Assembly (NCBI RefSeq): GCF_024453815.1
Contig: NZ_CP072934.1
Coordinates: forward strand, 62,001-126,000
Reading direction: 5' to 3'
Length of the DNA: 64,000 bases
From: Corynebacterium pseudogenitalium
GTDB lineage: Bacteria; Actinomycetota; Actinomycetes; Mycobacteriales; Mycobacteriaceae
The position numbers and the translations under genes are program-made. Positions 14,178 to 34,643 of the stretch are shown piece after piece. Within the stretch, counting starts at the first letter, position 1, and each line of letters begins with the position of its first letter. The notes beneath the pieces are model-generated. The model ran no database searches, had not been told where the DNA came from, and saw only the letters and a program-made list of their open reading frames with translations.

Positions 14178-15491
14178 TTAGGGCGTGACCACGAACTGGC
14201 CGCGCTGTCCCTTTTCGGCGTCGGTCATCTGGTGGTTCACGAAAGTGTACGTCCCGGGCTCGTCGAAGGTCATCTCAACAAACCCGCCTTGGGCGGCGAG
14301 GAGCCCGAGCGCCTGTGATCCGGTATCTGTGGCGTTTCGGACCTGGTACTGGCCTTCCTTGAATACGGTGTCGAAGATTTCGCCGACCACGTGGAAGCTC
14401 AGCGGATTGTCGGGGCCGACGTTGAAGATCCACACACGGACGGTATCGCCGACGCGGGCCGGAATCGGCCGCTGCTGGTACTGGTTGGGGTAGCCGTTGA
14501 ACGCGGTGAGATCGTAGAGCCCGGCGGCGACTCGCTCGGGGTCGGCGCCGTCCTCGCCGAGGAAGACCTCGTGTGAGAGGAGGACGTATTCGGCGTCGAC
14601 AGGCGTGAGGTCCGGTGGGTCGATGACGACGGCGCCGAACATGCCGTTGGCGATGTGCAGACTCATCGGCATGGTGGCGCAGTGGTACATCCAGATCCCG
14701 TAGCGGCGGGCTTCGAACTCGTACGTGAGCGATTCGCCCGGGGCGATCTGGGCCATGTTCGTATCGGGGTTGACCTCACCCGCGTGGAAGTCGATGGAGT
14801 GCTCCATCGTGCCGTCGTTGACGATGGTGATGCGGAACAGGTCACCGACGCGCCCACGCAGTACGGGACCTGGCATTTCTCCGTCGAAGGTCCAGACGGG
14901 TTGGGTGACGCCGGGCGCAACCTGGCGCTCGCTTTCGGCAACGTGCCAGGTGTGTTCGTGCACTGTTCTTTCGGGAGCATCGGGCGCGGGAGGCAGCGCC
15001 GGGTCGCGGTAGACCAGGCCGGAGTCGGGCCCGTCCGCGGCAACTACCGGTCTGGGCGCGGCGCTCGGCGAAGTGCTCGGGCTCGCCGATCCGACCACGA
15101 CATCGAACACCATGCCCATCGCCTTGTGTCCGGCGATCGTGCACCAGCCTTGCGTGGACTCGGTGAAGACGCCGAAGTCGTGGACGACGGTGTCGCCGGG
15201 ATCGATGCGGCCTGTGTACTCGTTGCCCAGCTTGAGGTCGTGCTGCTGGTCGTCGGAGTTGGTGATGGTGAGGATGAGGCGGGTACCGGAGGGGACGTCG
15301 ATACGATTCGGCGTGAAGGTCATGCCTTGGATGTCGACGTCGAGCGTGGTGGCGCCGCTGGTGTCGAGTGGTTCCGGGCCGCGATCGTCGCCTGCGGTCG
15401 AGCTCAGCGCGCTGAACGCCACCACGAGCGCCACGAATACGGCGATGATGCCCCACGCCAGGCCGTCGGAGGTCTGCCCTTTTTTATTCAC
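14178..15491 (-). CDS. nirK: Copper nitrite reductase-like multicopper protein with extra N-terminal cupredoxin domain
   Basis: This envelope protein has a membrane anchor and three cupredoxin units. The first (after the helix around GLAWGIIAVFVALVV) carries QHDL and GWCTIAGHKAMGM, a likely type 1 copper site. The next two form a NirK-like core with HSIDFHA, YHCATMPMSLHIANGMFG and SFHVVGE, which supply type 1 and type 2 copper ligands. NirK reduces nitrite to nitric oxide. I prefer the GTG at 15491, which starts just before the anchor and leaves the conserved motif at 15505 in the leader; an ATG at 15542 in frame is the alternative. Neighbouring NO-related genes support the call. Confidence 0.82.
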   Translation of the reverse strand: MNKKGQTSDGLAWGIIAVFVALVVAFSALSSTAGDDRGPEPLDTSGATTLDVDIQGMTFTPNRIDVPSGTRLILTITNSDDQQHDLKLGNEYTGRIDPGDTVVHDFGVFTESTQGWCTIAGHKAMGMVFDVVVGSASPSTSPSAAPRPVVAADGPDSGLVYRDPALPPAPDAPERTVHEHTWHVAESERQVAPGVTQPVWTFDGEMPGPVLRGRVGDLFRITIVNDGTMEHSIDFHAGEVNPDTNMAQIAPGESLTYEFEARRYGIWMYHCATMPMSLHIANGMFGAVVIDPPDLTPVDAEYVLLSHEVFLGEDGADPERVAAGLYDLTAFNGYPNQYQQRPIPARVGDTVRVWIFNVGPDNPLSFHVVGEIFDTVFKEGQYQVRNATDTGSQALGLLAAQGGFVEMTFDEPGTYTFVNHQMTDAEKGQRGQFVVTP

Positions 15492-15504
15492 GGTCTCGAT
15501 CGTA

Positions 15505-15530
15505 ATAAATATGGTTCGAAATAGGGAAAG
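15505..15530. promoter_or_regulatory. Conserved operator-like motif upstream of nirK
   Basis: The stretch starts AATAAATATGG and ends AATAGGGAAA. It is identical at 21 of 26 positions to 16435-16460, upstream of the SufR-like regulators, and its first 11 bases resemble AATAAACACGG in the hmp promoter. Confidence 0.5.
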
Positions 15531-15548
15531 CTCGGCACCCATAGAAAA

Positions 15549-15594
15549 ACCCTCGGGGGAACACAGAGTCTATGTCTGTGACCCAGATCCGAGG
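15549..15594 (+). other. Large stem-loop upstream of the Abi-like gene
   Basis: CCCTCGG (15549-15555) can pair with CCGAGGG near 15588-15594, and an inner CACAGA pairs with TCTGTG. The structure lies in the leader of the Abi-like gene, about 25 bp before its ATG. It may be a leader hairpin or a remnant of the inserted segment; there is no T run, so a terminator is not supported. Confidence 0.45.
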
Positions 15595-15618
15595 GACTAC
15601 GTTGGCTACAATAGCACA

Positions 15619-16455
15619 ATGACGTATCCAGTGCAGCCGCCTACAGGGCGCCACCACCTGTTATGGGGGTCTATTCCACCTGCTCGGATGGCGACATTTC
15701 TATCACACACGTCTCATCATTGCGCCGATGAGGCGCTTGAACTTTATGTATGGAATCGCGATTTGTCCATGGCCTTTATGGCCGATTTAGCGGTCCTCGA
15801 AGTTGCGTTACGTGAGGCTATTCATGCTGTTCTGACCGAGAAATGGGGCGTGCAGTGGTATCAGGAAATGCCTTTGGACGACCGGTCGCGAACGGCTTTG
15901 GCTAGTGCTTGGGAACGTCTGCCTGCTCACGTGAGATTGAACTCGGAACGTGGGGATTTACCAGGGAGACTAGTGGCCAACTGCATGTTTGGCTTCTGGA
16001 CGAATCTGTTTGATAAAGGCGGTTATACCGGCCGAGGTCCTTGGCGCAGAAAGGTTGACAATGAGCGGAACTGGCCAGTTCTAGCAAAAGCATTCCCCGG
16101 CGGCAGGCGAGAAGCTGCACGTCAGCGGGATGAGCATCCTGAAAAGGCGAGAGCGATAACTTTTTCTCGTGTGTGGGTTCATCAGTTGTGCCAAGAGATT
16201 AATGAACTTCGAAACCGTGTTGCGCATCATGAACCGTTACTGAATGGTGTCCCACTTCGTGGACAAACGCATCGAAATGAAAAAAGAAGGAGAACAGTTG
16301 AGGAGGCATTCGCGCAAATCTTGTCCCTCGCCCGCATGATTGACACTGACCTGGCTACGTGGTTGGTGGCCAATAGTGAAGTACCAGGTGTTATGGCGAG
16401 AAAGTGCGAAATAACCTCTTCGTCACGTTCTTTCAATAAATACGGCCTGGAATAG
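15619..16455 (+). CDS. Abi-like (AbiD/AbiF family) HEPN-type putative phage-defence protein
   Basis: This 278-residue protein resembles Abi_2-family abortive infection proteins. It has the family-typical early segment ELYVWNRDLSMAFMADLAVLEVALREAI and, near residue 208, ELRNRVAHHEPL, which contains the RxxxxH arrangement of HEPN ribonucleases. Members stop phage spread by shutting down the infected cell, probably by RNA cleavage. Base composition and codon use are visibly more AT-rich than the neighbours, pointing to transfer. It sits alone between the nirK-like gene and the SufR-like pair, and its last codons lie inside a copy of the motif found upstream of nirK. Confidence 0.72.
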   Translation: MTYPVQPPTGRHHLLWGSIPPARMATFLSHTSHHCADEALELYVWNRDLSMAFMADLAVLEVALREAIHAVLTEKWGVQWYQEMPLDDRSRTALASAWERLPAHVRLNSERGDLPGRLVANCMFGFWTNLFDKGGYTGRGPWRRKVDNERNWPVLAKAFPGGRREAARQRDEHPEKARAITFSRVWVHQLCQEINELRNRVAHHEPLLNGVPLRGQTHRNEKRRRTVEEAFAQILSLARMIDTDLATWLVANSEVPGVMARKCEITSSSRSFNKYGLE

Positions 16456-16460
16456 GGAAA
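16435..16460. promoter_or_regulatory. Conserved operator-like motif upstream of the SufR-like regulators
   Basis: AATAAATACGG followed by AATAGGGAAA repeats the nirK-leader element (21 of 26 identical). It overlaps the 3' end of the Abi-like gene and lies about 50 bp before the first regulator. Confidence 0.5.
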
Positions 16461-16511
16461 ATCGGCGATTTCGGTTTAAGCTGGTAAAGAGCTCTGACCG
16501 AAGGAGGACAC

Positions 16512-17168
16512 GTGAATTCGGCGACCCCGCCTCAACCGACGACGGACCTGATGGACCGCGCCGCCGAGTTGAGCGTGAAGCAGCGCGAGGTGCTTGATCG
16601 CCTAGCTTTGCACCCGCATGGGGCGCAGGTCGGCGACCTTGCCAAGGAGATGGGGATGCACCCCAACACGATCCGCGGGCATTTGGATGAGTTGTTGGCG
16701 CGGGATTTGGTGCAGGTCACCACGGCTCCGAGCGAGGGCCGCGGCCGCCCGAGCAACATTTTCCACACGCGCACCCCGCACCACTCGACCGTGACTCGCG
16801 AGTACATCGGCCTGGTCAGGACGATGGCGGAGTGCCTCACCGAGGGCGATACGGAGAAGGCGCGCGAGATCGGCCGTCAGTGGGCGCGCCAGACCCACAA
16901 CGGCCGCGAGGTGCAGTCGGACGCCTCCGGGGCGTCCCAGCTCAGCGCCCTGATCGCGATTCTGCGGGACCTCGGCTTCGACCCCTCCTACCCAAACCAG
17001 TCCGGCAACATTGGCCTCAACGCTTGCCCGTTCACGACGGTGGGCGTCAGCGCGCCAAGTTCGGTCATCTGTGCCCTGCACGCCGGCTACCTGGATGAAC
17101 TCAGCGGCGGCATCGTGCACAAGCTGCTGCCGTATAGTCGCCCGTCGCAGTGCGAGATCGAACTATGA
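16512..17168 (+). CDS. SufR-like (COG2345) winged-helix regulator with Cys cluster, paralogue 1
   Basis: This 218-residue regulator has an N-terminal winged helix (about residues 15-80, with MGMHPNTIRGHLDELLARDLV) and a C-terminal sensor segment. The segment has the pattern ACPF...ICALHAGYLD...QCEI, with three cysteines spaced as in SufR/COG2345 proteins, where cysteines hold an iron-sulfur cluster. The GTG start follows an AAGGAGG ribosome binding site. It overlaps paralogue 2 by 4 bp. Context with a nitrite reductase and a flavohaemoglobin suggests NO or Fe-S damage sensing; this is inference. Confidence 0.8.
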   Translation: MNSATPPQPTTDLMDRAAELSVKQREVLDRLALHPHGAQVGDLAKEMGMHPNTIRGHLDELLARDLVQVTTAPSEGRGRPSNIFHTRTPHHSTVTREYIGLVRTMAECLTEGDTEKAREIGRQWARQTHNGREVQSDASGASQLSALIAILRDLGFDPSYPNQSGNIGLNACPFTTVGVSAPSSVICALHAGYLDELSGGIVHKLLPYSRPSQCEIEL

Positions 17169-17863
17169 CTATCGACGACGCCGCCGCCCCCCTGCCCACC
17201 GCGGAGCTGATGCGCCGCGCGGCAGAGCTCAGCCCGAAGCAGCGTGAGGTCCTCGATGCGCTCGATTCTTTCCCGGAGGGTGCCTTGCTCAGCGAGCTGA
17301 GCAAGGAGCTTGGCATCCACGTCAATACTGTGCGCGGCCACGTCGATGAGCTGGCGGAGCGCGGTTTGGTGGGCTGGCGCGTGGCCAGCCGCACTACCCG
17401 CGGCCGCCCCTCGCACGTGTACCACGTGCGCACCCCACAGCATCACGCTGTGATGCACGAGTACGTCGCGCTCGTCGAGTCGCTGATTGAGTCGCTCGCC
17501 GGCTTCGATCTGGACGCTGCCCGCGACTTCGGGCGCGCGTGGGCGCGGCGCAACGCGGACCGCTTCGGCGAGCCGCCAAAGGACTTCGAGGAGCTCGCCG
17601 CCGCGGTGCTGCGCTCCCTGCGCGAGATGGGCTTCGACCCGCTCGTCCGCGAGGCTGACGGCGACGCCTCGGTGGAAGTCGGCCTGCAGGCCTGCCCGTT
17701 CGTCGCCGCCGACGGCACCCCGCCCGCAGCCACGATTTGCGCACTACACCAGGGGTTTATCGACGCCACCATCGGCCCCCACCACCTCGACTTCATGCCG
17801 TTCGACGCGTCGGGGCAGTGCGGGGCCCGGCTGGTTAACCGATCAGCCAGTCGTTCGGACTAA
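17165..17863 (+). CDS. SufR-like (COG2345) winged-helix regulator with Cys cluster, paralogue 2
   Basis: This 232-residue protein is a clear paralogue of the gene just upstream: both share AELS.KQREVLD, the helix LGIHVNTVRGHVDELAERGLV, and the C-terminal pattern QACPFV...ICALHQGFID...QCGA with three cysteines. I chose the ATG at 17165, which overlaps the upstream TGA (ATGA); a GTG at 17150 is possible. Tandem co-translated paralogues may form a heterodimer or sense different signals. The 3' end overlaps the convergent flavohaemoglobin gene by 29 bp. Confidence 0.8.
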   Translation: MTIDDAAAPLPTAELMRRAAELSPKQREVLDALDSFPEGALLSELSKELGIHVNTVRGHVDELAERGLVGWRVASRTTRGRPSHVYHVRTPQHHAVMHEYVALVESLIESLAGFDLDAARDFGRAWARRNADRFGEPPKDFEELAAAVLRSLREMGFDPLVREADGDASVEVGLQACPFVAADGTPPAATICALHQGFIDATIGPHHLDFMPFDASGQCGARLVNRSASRSD

Positions 17864-18995
17864 ACAGCTCGAAGTACACGTTCGCCGGGTCGAGCTGTGC
17901 CAGGTCGTCGCGGATGGACTGCAGGAAGCCCTCGCCGCCGCACAGATACACGTCTGCGCCGGAAACGTCCAGGTCAGCGACGTTGAGGCGCTGGCCTTCG
18001 GCACGGAAGTAGGGGTGCAGGGAGGCGTCGTCAAGCTTCTCGACGAGCATCCGCATCTCATCCGCCTGCGCCCACGACTGCTGCGATTCGTCGACGTGCG
18101 CGACGGTGACCTTGCGCGGCGAGCCCTCCGCTGCGAGATGCCCGAGAATGCCGGTCATCGGCGTGGACCCGATGCCGGAGGAGATCAGCACAACCGGGTT
18201 TGTGCCGGCCTGCAGCACCAGGTCGCCGGCGGCGAGCGTGGCGTCGACGGTGTCGCCGACGTTGACGTGGTCGCGCAGGAACGTGGACACTTCGCCCTCG
18301 GTCTCCACGGCGATGCGGTAGTGGGAGGCGTCGCCTTCGATGATGGAGTACTGGCGCAGCTGGCGCGCGCCGTCCGGCAGCTTCACGCCGACCGACGTGT
18401 ACTGGCCTGGGCGCGGCGCCGTGAAGTCGCCCTCCAGGGTGTAGGCGTAGACGGTGTCGCTGAGCTGGGTTTTCTCCGTGACGGTGGCGGTGCGGAACAC
18501 GTCGCCCGCCTCCACGCCGTCCGATTCGTAGAGCTTGCCTTCGTGCTTGATCAGGACGTCGGCCATCAGCCAGTACACCTTGTCCCAAGCCTCGGCGACT
18601 TCTGGGGTGACGGCGTCACCAAGCACCTCGACGATGGCGGCCATCAGGTTGTCGTGCACGATCTGGTACTGGTCCGCCGTGATGCCCAGCGAGACGTGCT
18701 TGTGCGCGATGCGATCCAGCATCATCACTGGGTCTGGAGCGTCTGGGTCCACCAGCTGCGTGGCGAACGTCGCCACCGACGCCGCTAGCGCCTTCTGCTG
18801 CGCGCCCTGCTTCTGGTTGCCGCGGTTGAACGTGTCGGCGATGAGCTCGGGGTGGGCGGTGAACATCTTGTTGTAGAAGGTCTTCGTGATCGTCTGGATA
18901 TTCGCGCCTACCGGCGGGAGCGTCGCCTTGATGATCTCGGCGTGCTCGTCGCTCAGGTATGCCTGTTTCGGGTTTGGTTTCTCGTCAATGAACAT
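17835..18995 (-). CDS. hmp: Flavohaemoglobin (nitric oxide dioxygenase)
   Basis: This enzyme oxidises NO to nitrate with O2 and NAD(P)H. The 386-residue protein has an N-terminal globin domain (FYNKMF, proximal histidine in HKHVSLGI), an FAD-binding barrel (RQYSI) and an NAD-binding domain (SSGIGSTPMTG, YLCGGEGFL). Length is typical. The ATG at 18995 lacks a ribosome binding site but lies 7 nt after a TATATT -10 box, so the mRNA is probably leaderless; a GTG at 18999-19001 is the alternative. A perfect palindrome covers the promoter. It would detoxify NO made by the nearby NirK-like enzyme. Confidence 0.93.
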   Translation of the reverse strand: MFIDEKPNPKQAYLSDEHAEIIKATLPPVGANIQTITKTFYNKMFTAHPELIADTFNRGNQKQGAQQKALAASVATFATQLVDPDAPDPVMMLDRIAHKHVSLGITADQYQIVHDNLMAAIVEVLGDAVTPEVAEAWDKVYWLMADVLIKHEGKLYESDGVEAGDVFRTATVTEKTQLSDTVYAYTLEGDFTAPRPGQYTSVGVKLPDGARQLRQYSIIEGDASHYRIAVETEGEVSTFLRDHVNVGDTVDATLAAGDLVLQAGTNPVVLISSGIGSTPMTGILGHLAAEGSPRKVTVAHVDESQQSWAQADEMRMLVEKLDDASLHPYFRAEGQRLNVADLDVSGADVYLCGGEGFLQSIRDDLAQLDPANVYFELFSPNDWLIG

Positions 18996-19019
18996 AAACA
19001 CGAATATACCCGTGTTTAT
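18994..19019 (-). promoter_or_regulatory. hmp promoter/operator palindrome
   Basis: ATAAACACG (18994-19002) and its exact complement CGTGTTTAT (19011-19019) flank an 8-bp centre holding TATATT on the minus strand. A bound repressor would block the -10 element and start codon. On the minus strand it reads AATAAACACGG, like the motifs at 15505 and 16435. Confidence 0.65.
19003..19008 (-). promoter_or_regulatory. hmp -10 box (leaderless start)
   Basis: TATATT on the minus strand lies 7 nt before the ATG at 18995 and there is no ribosome binding site, so transcription and translation probably begin at the same point. Confidence 0.55.
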
Positions 19020-19718: not shown

Positions 19719-19844
19719 CAGCGCTCCTTTCTGCTTTGTAAGCACCTACGACAAACAATAAACTAAACACCCCACTATGTAAAGGAAAGTGGACAAAAAG
19801 GTAAGAGTAGGCGTCGATAGGCGCAAAGCTCTGGACTGTCGTGC

Positions 19845-19925
19845 ATGCCTACGCCAGTGCCTGCGTACCTCGATAAGATCCTTGACCTCGTCCGCCATAC
19901 CACCCAACATCCCACATGTGGGATG
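19845..19925 (+). pseudogene. Broken copy of the 5' end of the glutaminase gene
   Basis: The 26-codon frame begins MPTPVPAYLDKILDLVR, which differs from the first 17 residues of the glutaminase at 20051 only by Asp for Glu at position 10. After codon 17 it runs into the 31-bp repeat and stops. The DNA match covers about 50 bp. It looks like a local duplication of the gene start. Confidence 0.75.
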
Positions 19926-19926
19926 T
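19896..19926. repeat. 31-bp direct repeat with 20-bp palindrome, copy 1
   Basis: The unit contains the perfect palindrome ACATCCCACATGTGGGATGT (19907-19926) and is identical to 19985-20015. It immediately follows the broken glutaminase 5' copy. It may be an operator or a small duplicated element. Confidence 0.75.
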
Positions 19927-19984
19927 AAGTGTTATGTTGTTTGACCTGCGTGAACTCGTCCTACATACCACTTTTTCGGTGGAA

Positions 19985-20015
19985 CATACCACCCAACATC
20001 CCACATGTGGGATGT
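19985..20015. repeat. 31-bp direct repeat with palindrome, copy 2 (glutaminase leader)
   Basis: This is the second identical unit; here the palindrome extends to 22 bp. It is followed by two further partial units reading TTATGTGGGA before the glutaminase ATG at 20051. Its place 36 bp before the start suggests it controls that gene. Confidence 0.75.
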
Positions 20016-20050
20016 TATGTGGGATGTTATGTGGGAAGTAAGCTGGCGGC

Positions 20051-21706
20051 ATGCCAACCCCAGTGCCTGCGTACCTCGAGAAGATCCTTGACCTCGTCCG
20101 CGACGACGACGCCGGCGAGCCCGCCGACTACATCGAGTCGCTGCGCACCGCCGACCCGGACAAGCTCGGCCTCGCCGTGTGCACCACGTCGGGCCACCTG
20201 TACTCCGTCGGCGACGACAGCTACGAGTTCTCCATCCAGTCAATCTCGAAGCCGTTCGTCTACGCCCTCGCGCTCGAGGAGCTCGGCGCGCAGGAGGTGC
20301 ACAAGGTCGTGGGGGTTGAGCCCTCAGGGGAGGCCTTCAACGCCATCTCTCTTGACGACGCCACCAACCGGCCCTCAAACCCCATGATCAATGCAGGCGC
20401 CATCGCCGTGAACCAGCTCATCAACGGGGCGGATTCGAGTGTCGAAGACCGCGTCGAGAAGATTCGGTCGTTCTTTTCCCGCCTTGCGGGCCGTGAACTG
20501 CGCATCGACCAAAACATCCTCGACGACGAGCTGGCCACCGCGCACCGCAACCTGTCCATCGCGCACCTGCTGCGGGAATTCGGCATGGTCCAAGACCAGG
20601 CCCACGACGCCGTGAACTCCTACACGCAGCAGTGCTCCATCCTGGTCACCGTCCGCGACCTTGCCGTCATGGCCGCCACCTTGGCCAACGGCGGCGTCCA
20701 GCCGATCACCGGCGAGCGCATCATGTCCGCTGCGGCTAGCCGGGTGACACAGGCCGTGATGACGTCCGCCGGCATGTACGACGGCTCCGGCCGCTGGATG
20801 GTCAACGTGGGCATCCCCGCCAAGTCGGGCGTGGCTGGTGGCCTCATCGGCACGATGCCGGGGCAGCTCGGTATCGCGTCGTTGAGTCCGCGCCTGGACA
20901 AGCAGGGCAACTCGGTACGCGGCGTGAAGATCTTCCGCGAGCTGTCCGAATCCCTCGGCCTCAACCTGATGAGCGCCGACTACTACGCGGCGCCAGGGAT
21001 CCGGACGGTGGATCGTCGAGAAGCGAAGACCGTCGTGCAACTCCAGGGCATGATCAACTTCACCGCTGCCGAGAAAATCCTTCACGACCTCGGCGAATAC
21101 CGCCTCGCCGGCAACCGCCTGGTGCTCGACGTCTCCAACGTCACCTCATTCAACAAGGCCGGGCGCCTGCTGATTAAAGAAGGCATCAAGCAGATCCGCG
21201 ACCAAGGTTTCGACGTCTCCATCTACGACCCCGACGGCGCCATGCCCGACTACGAGTTCTCCGACGGCACCAAATTCCGCGCCGTGAAGGACTTCTCCAC
21301 CTCCTTCGAGGTCCCGGCGAGCCGCACCGAAGTCTTCCGCGCAATCACCAGGCCACAGGAGTGGTGGGACGAAACCATCGAGGGCTCTGCAGACACCGCC
21401 GGCGGCGAGTTCCACTTCCAAAACGACGACCAATTCGCCGAGCTCTACGTCTCCGAAGCCGAGCAGGGCGACCGCCTCGTCTGGCGCGTCGAGCCCACCG
21501 GCAACCTGCTCGAGGACCCCGAGTGGGACGACACCGACATCATCTTCGAGCTTGAAGACGCCCCCGACGGCGACACCCGCGTCAAATTCACCCACCGCGG
21601 CATGCACCCGCACGAGGAAGGCTACGAGGAGGCCGCCGCCGACTGGAAGGCGCGTCTCCGCGACAAGTTGGAGCCACTGATCAAGCGCGAGAGCAAATCT
21701 GAGTAG
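20051..21706 (+). CDS. glsA: Glutaminase fused to STAS and SRPBCC (AHSA1-like) domains
   Basis: The first 310 residues are a complete class A glutaminase, which converts glutamine to glutamate and ammonia. The catalytic SxxK is in SIQSISKPF, and RPSNPMINAGAI and GIPAKSGVAGGL are family motifs. Residues about 325-410 form a STAS domain (VLDVSNVTSFNKAGRLLIKEGI). The last 125 residues (SFEVPASRTEVFRAITRPQEWWDETIEG...) are an SRPBCC/AHSA1 ligand-binding or co-chaperone-like domain. Glutaminase plus STAS is known in Actinobacteria; the third domain is unusual to my knowledge. The ATG at 20051 lies behind palindromic repeats; a broken copy of its 5' end lies 200 bp upstream. Confidence 0.88.
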   Translation: MPTPVPAYLEKILDLVRDDDAGEPADYIESLRTADPDKLGLAVCTTSGHLYSVGDDSYEFSIQSISKPFVYALALEELGAQEVHKVVGVEPSGEAFNAISLDDATNRPSNPMINAGAIAVNQLINGADSSVEDRVEKIRSFFSRLAGRELRIDQNILDDELATAHRNLSIAHLLREFGMVQDQAHDAVNSYTQQCSILVTVRDLAVMAATLANGGVQPITGERIMSAAASRVTQAVMTSAGMYDGSGRWMVNVGIPAKSGVAGGLIGTMPGQLGIASLSPRLDKQGNSVRGVKIFRELSESLGLNLMSADYYAAPGIRTVDRREAKTVVQLQGMINFTAAEKILHDLGEYRLAGNRLVLDVSNVTSFNKAGRLLIKEGIKQIRDQGFDVSIYDPDGAMPDYEFSDGTKFRAVKDFSTSFEVPASRTEVFRAITRPQEWWDETIEGSADTAGGEFHFQNDDQFAELYVSEAEQGDRLVWRVEPTGNLLEDPEWDDTDIIFELEDAPDGDTRVKFTHRGMHPHEEGYEEAAADWKARLRDKLEPLIKRESKSE

Positions 21707-30078: not shown

Positions 30079-32814
30079 CTACATCCTCGGCAGCCGCACG
30101 CCCGGAATCAGGTCCGCGTACGCCGCACCGCCGAACCCAAGCGCCAGCAGCAGCGGCAGGATCAGCCACAGCCAACTACTTGCCGACGACCCCTCCGCCC
30201 CACTCGCAGCCCCTTCCGTCTGCTGCGTTGGTTTGGCCTGCTGCGTAGTTTCCGGCGCCTGGCTAGTTGTCCGCGGCGCGGAACTTCCCGGCCTCGTCGC
30301 AGGTGTTGAGGTTGCCGCGGACACCTCGGTGGTTGGCTTTGCGGCTTCGGTTGTCCGCGGGGCGGAATCCTCAGCGGTCGGTTCTGTCTCCTCGGTTGTC
30401 CGCGCGGCGGACACCTCCGAGGTTGGGGTGGACGTTGTCGCTGGTGTTGAGGTTGCCGCGGACACCTTGGTGGTTGGCTTTGCGGCTTCGGTTGTCCGCG
30501 CGGCGGACACCTCCGACGAAGTTGTAGGGGCCACGGCTATCGTGGACAGCTTTGCCGAAGTGGTTGTCCGCGCGGCGAAATCCTCGGTAGCCGGTTCTGT
30601 CGTTTCGGTTGTCCGCGCGGCGGAACTTTCAGCAGTGGGTTCTGGCCTCTCCGTTGTCCGCGCGGCGGACACTTCCGATGAGGTCGGGGCAGCCGTTGTC
30701 GCTGGTGCCGAAGCTGCCGCGGACACCTCGGTGGTTGGCTTTGCGGCTTCGGTTGTCCGCGCGGCGGACACCTCCGACGAAGTTGTAGGGGCCACGGCTA
30801 CCGTGGACAGCTTTGCCGAAGTGGTTGTCCGCGCGGCGAAATCCTCGGTAGCCGGTTCTGTCGTTTCGGTTGTCCGCGCGGCGGACACTTCCGAAGTTGG
30901 AACAGACGTTGTCGCTGGTGTTGAGGTTGCCGCGGACACTTCGATCGTTGGCTCTGCGGCTTCAGTTGTCCGCGCGGCGGACACCTCGGACGAGGTTGCA
31001 GGGGCCACGGCTACCGTGGACAGCTTTGCCGAAGTAGTTGTCCGCGCGGCGGACTGCTCACTCGAAGGAATTTCGGTCGGGGTTGTCCGCGCGGCGGAAC
31101 TGTCAGCAGTGGGTGCTGTCTCCTCGGTTGTCCGCGCGGCGGAATCCTCAGCGCTCGGTTCAGTCGTTTGCGTTGTTCGCGCGGCGGACACCTCCGAGGT
31201 TGGGGCAGCCGTTGTTGCTGGTGCTGTGGTTGCCGCGGACACCTCGGTCACGGTCGTTGGTGAGACCTCAGCCTCGGGTGCTTCAGCCTCGGATGCCTCA
31301 TCCTGGGGCGACTCGGACGGCTTGGTTGTCTCGGCTTCAGGCTTGTTGATGTACTGCTGCAGCAGCTTCTGCAGATCGAGCATGTCCTGCTCGAGTTTCT
31401 TTGCCTCGTCGAGGTTGTGGGTGAGCTCGTCGATATCGATTTGATCTTCGGGTTCGGCGGAAGTGTCTGCAGGTTCAACGCTTTCGGAAGCTTCGGGTGT
31501 CCGCGGGGCGGACTCTTCCGGAGCTGAAGTAGACGTTGTCGCTGGTGTTGAGGTTGCCGCGGACTCCTCCGAAGAAGTCTCGGGGGATTCGGGCTCAGCA
31601 TGAGCTTCGGATTCCGACGGTTCCGGAGCTGCTTCAGATTCCGACGGTTCCGGTGTCCGCGGGGCGGACTCCTCGGTCGGCTCGGCAGCCGCAGAAGGCT
31701 CTACCGTTGCAGAAGGCTCGGCAGCCTCGGTCTCAGAAGCCTCTGTCTCCGCGGGCGCGTTCTTCAGTTCCTCCAGCGCGGCGGCTTTGTCGGCGATGCG
31801 TTTGGTGGCGTCGGTGATTTCGTTGTCCACGGCGCGGAGGGCGCGTTCGAGGGTCCACTTGTCGGCGTTGTGCCAGAAGCCGGTGAATGGGTTGCGCTCT
31901 TGCCATCCGGTGAGTGCGGCGAGGTTGGCTTCGATGTTGGCCTTGCGGTGGGTGGCGGCTTCGAGGGTGCTGTTGGCGAACTCGAGCTGTCGAGAAGCGT
32001 CGTCGATGTTGGTGGGGGTGGTGGCGTCGTAGCGGTCGGCGCCGTGGCCCTCGTGCGAAGGCGTTGCTGCTTCGACGGTTTCGAAGAGTTCGATGGAGCG
32101 GGTGATGTTGTCCAGGCGGGCTTGTTCGAGGTCGAGTTTGGCTTTGCGGGCGTCGCGACGGTTCTTCAGGCCCTCGAGCTCCTTGGTGTTGGAGGGGGCG
32201 AGCCAGCTGAACCAGCTGGAGTCGACTTCTTTTTTGCGTTTGGTGTAGGCGGAGTCGGCTTCGTCGAAAAGTGCTTGGCGCTTGGCCACTGCCTCCTGCT
32301 GCGCGGTGATGCTCTCAAGGGCTTCGCGCAGGTTGGTGGGCAGGGCGACGGGTTTGATGTCGGGTTCGGGGGCGTCTTCGTAGGCGGATGGGTCTTTGCC
32401 GTTGAAGTCCTCGAGCTGCTTCTTGGTCACGGCGAGTGTTTTGCGTGCGGCGTCGAGGGAGGTCTTGGTGGTGCGGACGAGGAGTTCGGCGGAGTCGACG
32501 AGCAGTTTCTGCTGGTCGTACTCGGCTTGCTTGGCCTTCTTGTTCTCCTCGCCGATGGCGAGGACGACGCCCCAGCGCTTCATCTCGAGGACAGCCTGCG
32601 CGCCCTTGAGCGCCAGGTCGGCTTTCCATAGCTGGGATTCGAGTTCGGCGACTTTGGCTTCGCCCTTTTCGACGAGCCCCTGCAACGCCTGCCCGCCGAG
32701 GCCGAGGAGGCCTTGCGCTTCGGCGTAGTGGGCGGTGGGGTTGATGGTGGCGGGGACGGTGACGGCGGTGCCGGTCAGGGCGACAACGAGGGCGCCGGAG
32801 GTCAACTTGTGCAT
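30079..32814 (-). CDS. Long envelope protein with coiled-coil region and Thr/Ser/Glu repeat tail
   Basis: This 911-residue protein has a signal peptide (ALVVALTGTAVTVPATI), then about 340 residues rich in Lys, Glu, Ala and Leu that should form coiled coils. A repeat tail of about 400 residues follows, built from units such as EVSAARTTE and TTTSAKLSTVAVAP, and then one C-terminal helix (SSWLWLILPLLLALGFGG) and a short basic end. There is no LPxTG sorting motif, so it is probably membrane-anchored with a long extended stalk in the wall. The ATG at 32814 lies 6 nt after TAAACT, without a ribosome binding site. Function unknown; adhesion or envelope spacing are possibilities. Confidence 0.75.
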   Translation of the reverse strand: MHKLTSGALVVALTGTAVTVPATINPTAHYAEAQGLLGLGGQALQGLVEKGEAKVAELESQLWKADLALKGAQAVLEMKRWGVVLAIGEENKKAKQAEYDQQKLLVDSAELLVRTTKTSLDAARKTLAVTKKQLEDFNGKDPSAYEDAPEPDIKPVALPTNLREALESITAQQEAVAKRQALFDEADSAYTKRKKEVDSSWFSWLAPSNTKELEGLKNRRDARKAKLDLEQARLDNITRSIELFETVEAATPSHEGHGADRYDATTPTNIDDASRQLEFANSTLEAATHRKANIEANLAALTGWQERNPFTGFWHNADKWTLERALRAVDNEITDATKRIADKAAALEELKNAPAETEASETEAAEPSATVEPSAAAEPTEESAPRTPEPSESEAAPEPSESEAHAEPESPETSSEESAATSTPATTSTSAPEESAPRTPEASESVEPADTSAEPEDQIDIDELTHNLDEAKKLEQDMLDLQKLLQQYINKPEAETTKPSESPQDEASEAEAPEAEVSPTTVTEVSAATTAPATTAAPTSEVSAARTTQTTEPSAEDSAARTTEETAPTADSSAARTTPTEIPSSEQSAARTTTSAKLSTVAVAPATSSEVSAARTTEAAEPTIEVSAATSTPATTSVPTSEVSAARTTETTEPATEDFAARTTTSAKLSTVAVAPTTSSEVSAARTTEAAKPTTEVSAAASAPATTAAPTSSEVSAARTTERPEPTAESSAARTTETTEPATEDFAARTTTSAKLSTIAVAPTTSSEVSAARTTEAAKPTTKVSAATSTPATTSTPTSEVSAARTTEETEPTAEDSAPRTTEAAKPTTEVSAATSTPATRPGSSAPRTTSQAPETTQQAKPTQQTEGAASGAEGSSASSWLWLILPLLLALGFGGAAYADLIPGVRLPRM
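30300..31580. repeat. Coding repeats inside the envelope protein gene
   Basis: The word GTTGTCCGCGCGGCGGA recurs many times; larger units of roughly 260 bp (around 30520, 30780 and 31000) are nearly identical. Each unit encodes the TTTSAKLST...EVSAARTTE block. Such repeats can change copy number by slippage or recombination. Confidence 0.8.
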
Positions 32815-32847
32815 GCGCAAAGTTTAGGGGATAGACCTCTCGAAGTG

Positions 32848-33464: not shown

Positions 33465-34643
33465 GTGAGGAACTTGTCCACGTCAGACATTATCTGGTGG
33501 CACGTCTACCCGCTGGGCGCCACGGGCGCACCGATCCGCGAGGAGCACGACGAAGCGCCGCGCCTGCGGCAGCTCGAGCCCTGGTTGGACTACCTGATCG
33601 AGCTCGGCTGCAACGGGCTGCTGCTCGGCCCGATTTTCAAATCGGTGTCCCACGGCTATGACACGCTGGACCACTTCCAGATCGACCCCCGCCTGGGCAC
33701 CAACGAGGACTTCGACCACCTGATGGCCGCCTGCCGCGAGCGCGGCATCCACGTGATGCTCGATGGCGTGTTCAACCACGTCGCGCGCACCCACCCGCTG
33801 GTGGCGCAGGGCCTGGCCGGCGACACGGACTGGGAAGGCCACGGCGAGCTGGCCACCCTCCACCACGAGGACCCGCGCGTGGCGGACCTGGTCACCGACG
33901 TCATGTGCTACTGGCTCGAACGCGGCATCACGGGCTGGCGCCTGGACGTGGCGTACTCGGTGCCGCCGGAGTTCTGGCGCACCGTGCTGGCGCGCGTGCG
34001 CGAGCGCTTCCCGGACGCGCTCTTCCTGGGCGAGGTCATCCACGGCGACTACGCCGAGATCGCCGCGGCGGGCACCCTGGACACCGTCACTCAATACGAG
34101 CTGTGGAAGGCCCTGTGGTCCTCCATCAAGGACGTGAACTTCTGGGAGCTTGACCACGCGCTGGGCCGCCACCGCGACCTGTGCGAGCACATGGTGCCCA
34201 ACACGTTCGTCGGCAACCACGACGTGGACCGGATTGCTTCGAAGGTGGGGCAGGACGGCGCGCTTGTGGCCACGGCGCTGCTCATGGCGCTGCCCGGCAT
34301 GCCCAGCATCTACTACGGCGATGAGCAGGGCTTCGAGGGCCTGCGCGGGGAGGGGTTCGCCGCCGACGACCCCGTGCGCCCGCCGCTGCCAGCCAGCCCC
34401 GCGGAGCTTTCGAGTCTGGGGCAGTGGATCTTCGAGGAGCACAAGAAGCTCATCGCTTTTCGACGCCGCCACCGCTGGCTCGAAACCGCCACCCTCGAGG
34501 TGACCGACAAAACAAATGAGGCGATCACCGTGGCGCTCGAATCCGGTTCGGAGCGCGCGACGGTGACCGCCTGGCTCGACCCCGCGCCGGGCGTGCGCAT
34601 CACGTCCGGGGGCGAGACCTGCTACGAGTGGTCTGCTGTCTAA
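33465..34643 (+). CDS. GH13 alpha-amylase-family glycoside hydrolase
   Basis: This cytosolic enzyme of 392 residues has no signal peptide. The catalytic triad is complete: nucleophile Asp161 in GWRLDVAYS, acid/base Glu190 in FLGEVIHG and Asp253 in FVGNHDVDR, with the upstream DGVFNH motif. It should act on alpha-glucosidic bonds of small oligosaccharides or on sugar transfer. The start is uncertain: GTG at 33465 is chosen, with TTG at 33474 as alternative. It is smaller than most GH13 enzymes and lacks an obvious extra domain. Confidence 0.83.
   Translation: MRNLSTSDIIWWHVYPLGATGAPIREEHDEAPRLRQLEPWLDYLIELGCNGLLLGPIFKSVSHGYDTLDHFQIDPRLGTNEDFDHLMAACRERGIHVMLDGVFNHVARTHPLVAQGLAGDTDWEGHGELATLHHEDPRVADLVTDVMCYWLERGITGWRLDVAYSVPPEFWRTVLARVRERFPDALFLGEVIHGDYAEIAAAGTLDTVTQYELWKALWSSIKDVNFWELDHALGRHRDLCEHMVPNTFVGNHDVDRIASKVGQDGALVATALLMALPGMPSIYYGDEQGFEGLRGEGFAADDPVRPPLPASPAELSSLGQWIFEEHKKLIAFRRRHRWLETATLEVTDKTNEAITVALESGSERATVTAWLDPAPGVRITSGGETCYEWSAV

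Follow-up and report, generated by a model that had tools for sequence, protein, structure and literature searches.

In a 64,000-nucleotide stretch of the complete 2.39 Mb genome of Corynebacterium pseudogenitalium (assembly GCF_024453815.1, contig NZ_CP072934.1; G000:C1:62001-126000, hereafter the window), we identified a gene that encodes a glutaminase followed by a STAS domain and a third domain of the SRPBCC/AHSA1 type (Table 1). The reading frame is uninterrupted from its ATG to the stop codon and contains no internal stops. A Pfam scan of the 551-residue protein at E values up to 1 returned three families, each above its curated cut-off: Glutaminase (PF04960; E 1.4e-111, 372.7 bits against a cut-off of 27), STAS (PF01740; E 5.3e-6, 26.6 bits against 22.6) and AHSA1 (PF08327; residues 423-543, E 2.4e-8, 34.7 bits against 22.1). 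The first-pass annotation of the window had described such a frame, with boundaries at residues 1-310, 325-410 and 425-551. The frame is real and the boundaries are correct to within about 15 residues; the STAS and third domains are redrawn in the table.

Table 1. Features of the fused glutaminase gene, in window positions
Feature	Position	Strand	Remark
Whole gene, glutaminase-STAS-SRPBCC	20051..21706	+	551 aa plus stop
Glutaminase domain	20114..20965	+	Pfam residues 22-305
STAS domain, residues ~316-410 (Pfam 324-396)	20996..21280	+	
Third domain, SRPBCC/AHSA1, residues 411-551	21281..21703	+	
-10-like hexamer TAAGCT, 6 bases 5' of the ATG	20039..20044	+	predicted leaderless mRNA

The first two domains are an ordinary glutaminase of the NCBIfam model NF002134, which spans residues 1-417 (607 bits against a cut-off of 557). 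The glutaminase model TIGR03814 is also passed (330 against 255.4). Hydrolysis of glutamine to glutamate and ammonia would follow from family membership, and S64-x-x-K67, N114, E160, N167, Y191, Y243 and V261, which we take to be catalytic or binding positions from the human and bacterial glutaminases, are invariant across 23 aligned third-domain proteins. In the STAS domain, residues N368-K369-A370-G371 occupy the position of the phosphorylated serine (motif D-S-S-G) of anti-sigma antagonists, and that serine is missing. Phospho-switching of the anti-sigma type is therefore unlikely, and the antagonist model TIGR00377 scores 14.5 bits on the protein, below its cut-off of 53.45.

The third domain alone has no NCBIfam matches. 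It is homologous to SRPBCC proteins, as first proposed, by both its AHSA1 match and a confident and complete predicted fold. The predicted order is strand, two helices, five strands and a long C-terminal helix, which agrees with the helix-grip fold of AHSA1/SRPBCC domains. The Aha1 domain protein 2m89 of Colwellia psychrerythraea, a standalone protein of 21-22% identity, is both the best sequence-profile match (E 7.4e-10) and the best fold match among those listed. Standalone SRPBCC proteins from the window's order (L264-L281; about 150 residues) and from a Cytophagales metagenome-assembled genome (MAG; P0134) share 27-37% identity and the EW..T and FTH.GL signatures with the third domain. However, 19 of the 21 standalone matches carry a C-[YF]-x-x-C motif before the last helix that the fused domains lack.

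Leaderless transcripts are frequent in corynebacteria. In 39 of 42 full-length three-domain genes and in all nine genes with a shortened third domain, a TANNNT hexamer precedes the start codon by 5-8 bases, compared with 1-3% at control positions; this predicts a leaderless mRNA. Of the three exceptions, two are the second members of tandem pairs, and the remaining one (L018) appears to have a wrong scripted start. Transcriptome papers that contain the term leaderless mRNA include PMC3890552 and PMC5784534. We considered and rejected the leaderless promoter as a trait specific to the fusion, since the hexamer is also found in 35 of 55 two-domain and outgroup genes and so predates the fusion.

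Distribution and single origin of the fusion

We searched 242 genomes of the genus and identified a glutaminase match in 186. A profile built from 13 third domains (A2) matches 50 genomes, and in 49 of these the match lies on the glutaminase gene, so that a search for the same domain order elsewhere, as had been suggested, finds it repeatedly. The fiftieth (G046) has just two weak standalone proteins, at 25 and 24 bits. Among named species the domain is present in C. gottingense, C. bouchesdurhonense and C. riegelii and, to judge from the names of proteins, in C. hadale, C. qintianiae, C. liangguodongii, C. timonense, C. auris, C. aquatimens, C. lubricantis and C. pilosum. With residues 412-551 as the query against proteins of similar length, 21 were found, all of them three-domain proteins already listed. 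In the window's own genome the glutaminase and AHSA1 searches each match this gene only.

The full-length frame also occurs in three near-identical genomes (98-99% protein identity) and in many more at 57-80%, so the fusion is no joining artefact. A frameshift, misassembly or chance frame uniting two genes, which the first-pass annotation had named as a danger, is refuted by the same junction in the other carrier genomes and by ratios of nonsynonymous to synonymous substitution (dN/dS) below 1. It could draw on two observations only. Short Corynebacterium proteins of 120-196 residues (P0121-P0128), some named SRPBCC, look like 3' pieces of three-domain genes in other records. In G236, an assembly 77% complete, the end of the third domain of L144 (profile positions 111-138) is out of frame, within a 51-residue frame; this is either a broken gene or a sequence error.

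A tree of 106 rows was built from the 410 glutaminase and STAS columns only. Its third-domain genes number 51 and come from 49 genomes. Another 137 genomes have a glutaminase match and no third domain, and 41 of these contributed 42 genes; the remaining rows are six further records (four species-named, two MAGs) and an outgroup of seven. All 51 third-domain genes fall into a single clade (support 0.972). The same branch is recovered (99/96) in a 68-row tree under a site-mixture model, and a single label change is enough; this smaller tree omits seven third-domain rows (near-duplicates and L144) and many of the two-domain ones. The sister group consists of two-domain enzymes of 415-416 residues (lengths are from the fetched genes only), which stop where the fused proteins run on into the start of the SRPBCC domain, indicating an end-to-end join. 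A complete standalone SRPBCC protein was joined once, in the ancestor of one Corynebacterium clade.

The neighbouring genes differ between the two groups, and the fusion accordingly accompanies a change of place. Of 42 third-domain loci, 38 have a downstream GH13 glycosidase gene (assigned by Pfam; cluster 1), whereas the 41 two-domain loci all lack it; the window's own GH13 gene is farther away, at 33465-34640. Two-domain loci instead have a downstream L,D-transpeptidase-like gene (cluster 3; 23 of 41) and an upstream nicotinamidase-like gene (cluster 10; 13 of 41), both named from their translations. As operon partners we considered the conserved downstream GH13, TetR-like regulator and M20-like peptidase genes, the last two read from translations, and rejected them, finding no tie to glutamine.

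In six sister genomes (G076, G104, G031, G093, G077, G169) a standalone AHSA1 gene and the GH13 gene are 11-12 kb apart, which suggested that the glutaminase gene might have inserted beside a donor of the third domain. This candidate donor was rejected, as a profile of the 42 full third domains gave no match to those proteins at E up to 10. Among frames shorter than 420 residues, that profile identified only the clipped fused genes L222 and L223, Janibacter melonis L141 (16.5 bits) and L046 (11.9 bits). No donor was found by sequence among the standalone AHSA1 proteins of the genus examined, where the two G046 proteins under the A2 profile are the best matches. In the window's order the A2 profile matches 65 of 298 genomes, two of them Corynebacterium, with scores of up to 104.7 bits outside the genus; the donor was either inherited or imported.

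L153 (G130) and L156 (G036) are tandem pairs of complete three-domain glutaminases with a one-base overlap or three bases apart; they are probable two-gene operons, the second copies lacking the -10-like hexamer. G240 has two adjacent two-domain glutaminase genes (L193), one of which shares only 48% identity with the query and sits on a long branch.

Trimming and selection in the third domain

Mean pairwise identity among the 42 full genes is 0.73 for the glutaminase, 0.62 for the STAS domain and 0.50 for the third domain. By the Nei-Gojobori method (own script), dN/dS in the third domain is 0.02-0.53 in close pairs, 0.05-0.30 in trimmed genes (below 0.3 within L150-L155 and within L158-L160), and 0.16 for L145-L147. 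The third domain is therefore under purifying selection even though it evolves faster. Conservation was assessed in 39 full genes, with L144, L145 and L147 left out.

Nine genes have trimmed tails of 91-112 residues; the riegelii-like L145 and L147 retain almost the full length but are degenerate. We mapped the losses onto the elements of the predicted model, with gap placement depending on the alignment. Strand 453-457 is gone in all nine trimmed genes and mostly gone in L145 and L147, and in all eleven the loops 439-452 and 482-495 are incomplete. Every one of them retains strands 496-503 and 509-516 together with at least 88% of the last helix. L157 has also lost most of strand 462-471, and L158-L160 have lost W438-W439 and the entire 439-457 stretch. 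A T-H-R-G turn and W532 are kept in L158-L160 and L150-L155, appear as T-R-R-G with W532 in L145 and L147, and are both missing from L157.

Two trimmings are firm, one in L157 and one in the L150-L160 group. Three independent events were considered and not upheld, as a tree grouping L150-L155 with L158-L160 is not rejected (approximately unbiased test, p 0.086); a third is likely, although not proved. L145 and L147 represent a further, partial case.

Proposed role of the third domain

We assign a probability of about 0.55 to the reading that the gene encodes a cytosolic glutaminase-STAS enzyme with a once-fused, complete SRPBCC domain serving as an accessory module. The third domain would act in assembly or regulation inside the glutaminase oligomer, where it would sit next to or on top of the STAS domain, altering activity or stability and not catalysis. 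Its working part would be the C-terminal half, which comprises strands 5-6, the THRG turn and the long W532-bearing helix at the end; this half is proposed because most trimmed lineages retain it. The structure 2m89 is titled a dimer, which fits an assembly role and proves nothing for the third domain.

Several points weigh against this proposal. The faster evolution of the third domain and its trimming on at least two occasions would also suit an addition that is almost dispensable. Conservation of the last helix and the THRG turn is poor in L157, which argues against this half doing the work in every lineage. Additionally, the dimer of 2m89 may not carry over.

The main rival, which we consider less likely, is allosteric gating of the glutaminase by a small hydrophobic molecule bound in the SRPBCC cup, by analogy with the plant abscisic-acid receptors of the same fold, which gate phosphatases. 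However, a shared fold shows no function, the resemblance to ligand-binding SRPBCC proteins of the START and PYL type is one of fold, and dN/dS of the remnants stays low where strand 453-457 or W438-W439 have been lost. In L158-L160 the predicted cup would hardly be closed, which argues that selection there holds the C-terminal half and its contacts and not the pocket. A doubtful extension is that a hydrophobic molecule in the fused helix-grip cup gates the glutaminase and that the trimmed lineages lost sensing and kept the coupling half as a ligand-independent brake or clamp. If true, a ligand-gated glutaminase would be a bacterial fold counterpart of plant hormone-receptor control over an enzyme.

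It is unlikely, too, that the domain is a passive acidic tail for stability or solubility with no regulatory role. Its net charge of -20 over 141 residues in the window (mean -18.2 in the 39 full genes, compared with -8 to -17 in 21 standalone relatives) and its trimming suit such a tail; conserved residues, a confident and full predicted fold and low dN/dS do not. An Aha1-like domain recruiting Hsp90 is suggested by the AHSA1 family name and by fold matches to human Aha1 (7dme, 1x53), and the first-pass annotation had raised a co-chaperone-like role. We count it as refuted for the genomes tested, as Hsp90 (PF00183) was above the cut-off in none of 30 genomes, 25 of them third-domain carriers, while 5 of 14 controls were positive. 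A single match fell below the cut-off (22.4 bits, G173), and the N-terminal Aha1 domain is not among the three Pfam families of the window protein. The first-pass interpretation, tuning of the glutaminase by a small molecule or by protein partners, is partly supported.

The salt-tolerant glutaminase Mglu of Micrococcus luteus K-3 (PDB 3agd, 3age, 3if5, 3ih8-3ihb) has 456 residues and lacks the third domain, and its domain placement differs from that in the model of the window protein (rmsd 11.6 over both domains). The two-domain sister clade has neither the SRPBCC domain nor the same neighbours, although its member L162 passes the NF002134 cut-off as the window protein does. Glutaminase-STAS-cNMP_binding proteins (L136, L138, L140; L133 without a STAS call) likewise continue beyond the STAS region into a third domain that could be sensory. 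It was identified in four of nine glutaminases scanned, from Streptomyces, Patulibacter, Verrucomicrobiaceae and an actinomycete MAG; these proteins are 600-616 residues long and their third domain is unrelated. PF00027 (cNMP_binding) is absent from the Pfam matches of the window protein at E up to 1. Known kinds include the two-domain enzyme, the SRPBCC fold and glutaminase-STAS proteins extended by a third domain, and the enzyme described here is a real, if modest, departure from them. In the accessible part of the open-licence PMC literature we found no description of the glutaminase-STAS-SRPBCC combination, its single origin or its trimming.

Two-domain relatives, a tree-placed fusion, full enzymes, tandem duplicates and trimmed versions form a natural series within one genus, so that existing proteins can be compared to measure what an added domain contributes to a well-known metabolic enzyme. 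For annotation, the name 'glutaminase' hides the third domain, and 'AHSA1' should not be taken as Hsp90-related in these genomes.

Surroundings of the gene

The first 53 bases of the gene, counted from two bases 5' of the ATG, occur twice (19843-19895 and 20049-20101, 94% identical); the relatives L006 and L007 have a single copy in the upstream alignment. The upstream copy opens a 27-codon mini frame (19845-19928) that ends in a palindrome. This perfect 20-base palindrome, ACATCCCACATGTGGGATGT, is itself found twice (19907-19926 and 19996-20015), and its inner 18 bases do not occur elsewhere in the genome with up to two mismatches. In G135, of the same species (L203), the repeats adjoin the start of a divergently oriented gene that encodes SLFN_AlbA_2 and HATPase_c_4 domains. 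The palindromes may be what remains of an operator whose regulator gene is missing at this position of the window.

Downstream, from 21844 to about 30000, genes read from their translations as FAD monooxygenase, membrane protein, MFS transporter and dioxygenase-like separate the glutaminase from those found after it in G161 and G160, two genomes with 98-99% identical glutaminases. The beginning of this block, a strain-variable and probably catabolic island, is also present in G135. Upstream, at 14178-19001, a copper nitrite-reductase-like protein, two small helix-turn-helix proteins and a flavohaemoprotein, all read by eye, form a possible nitric-oxide handling cluster. The reverse strand at 30082-32820 encodes a probable surface protein that is repetitive and rich in Pro, Glu and Thr. 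Its repeat region is strongly unlike the one in G161 (49-96% identity in separate tblastn pieces).
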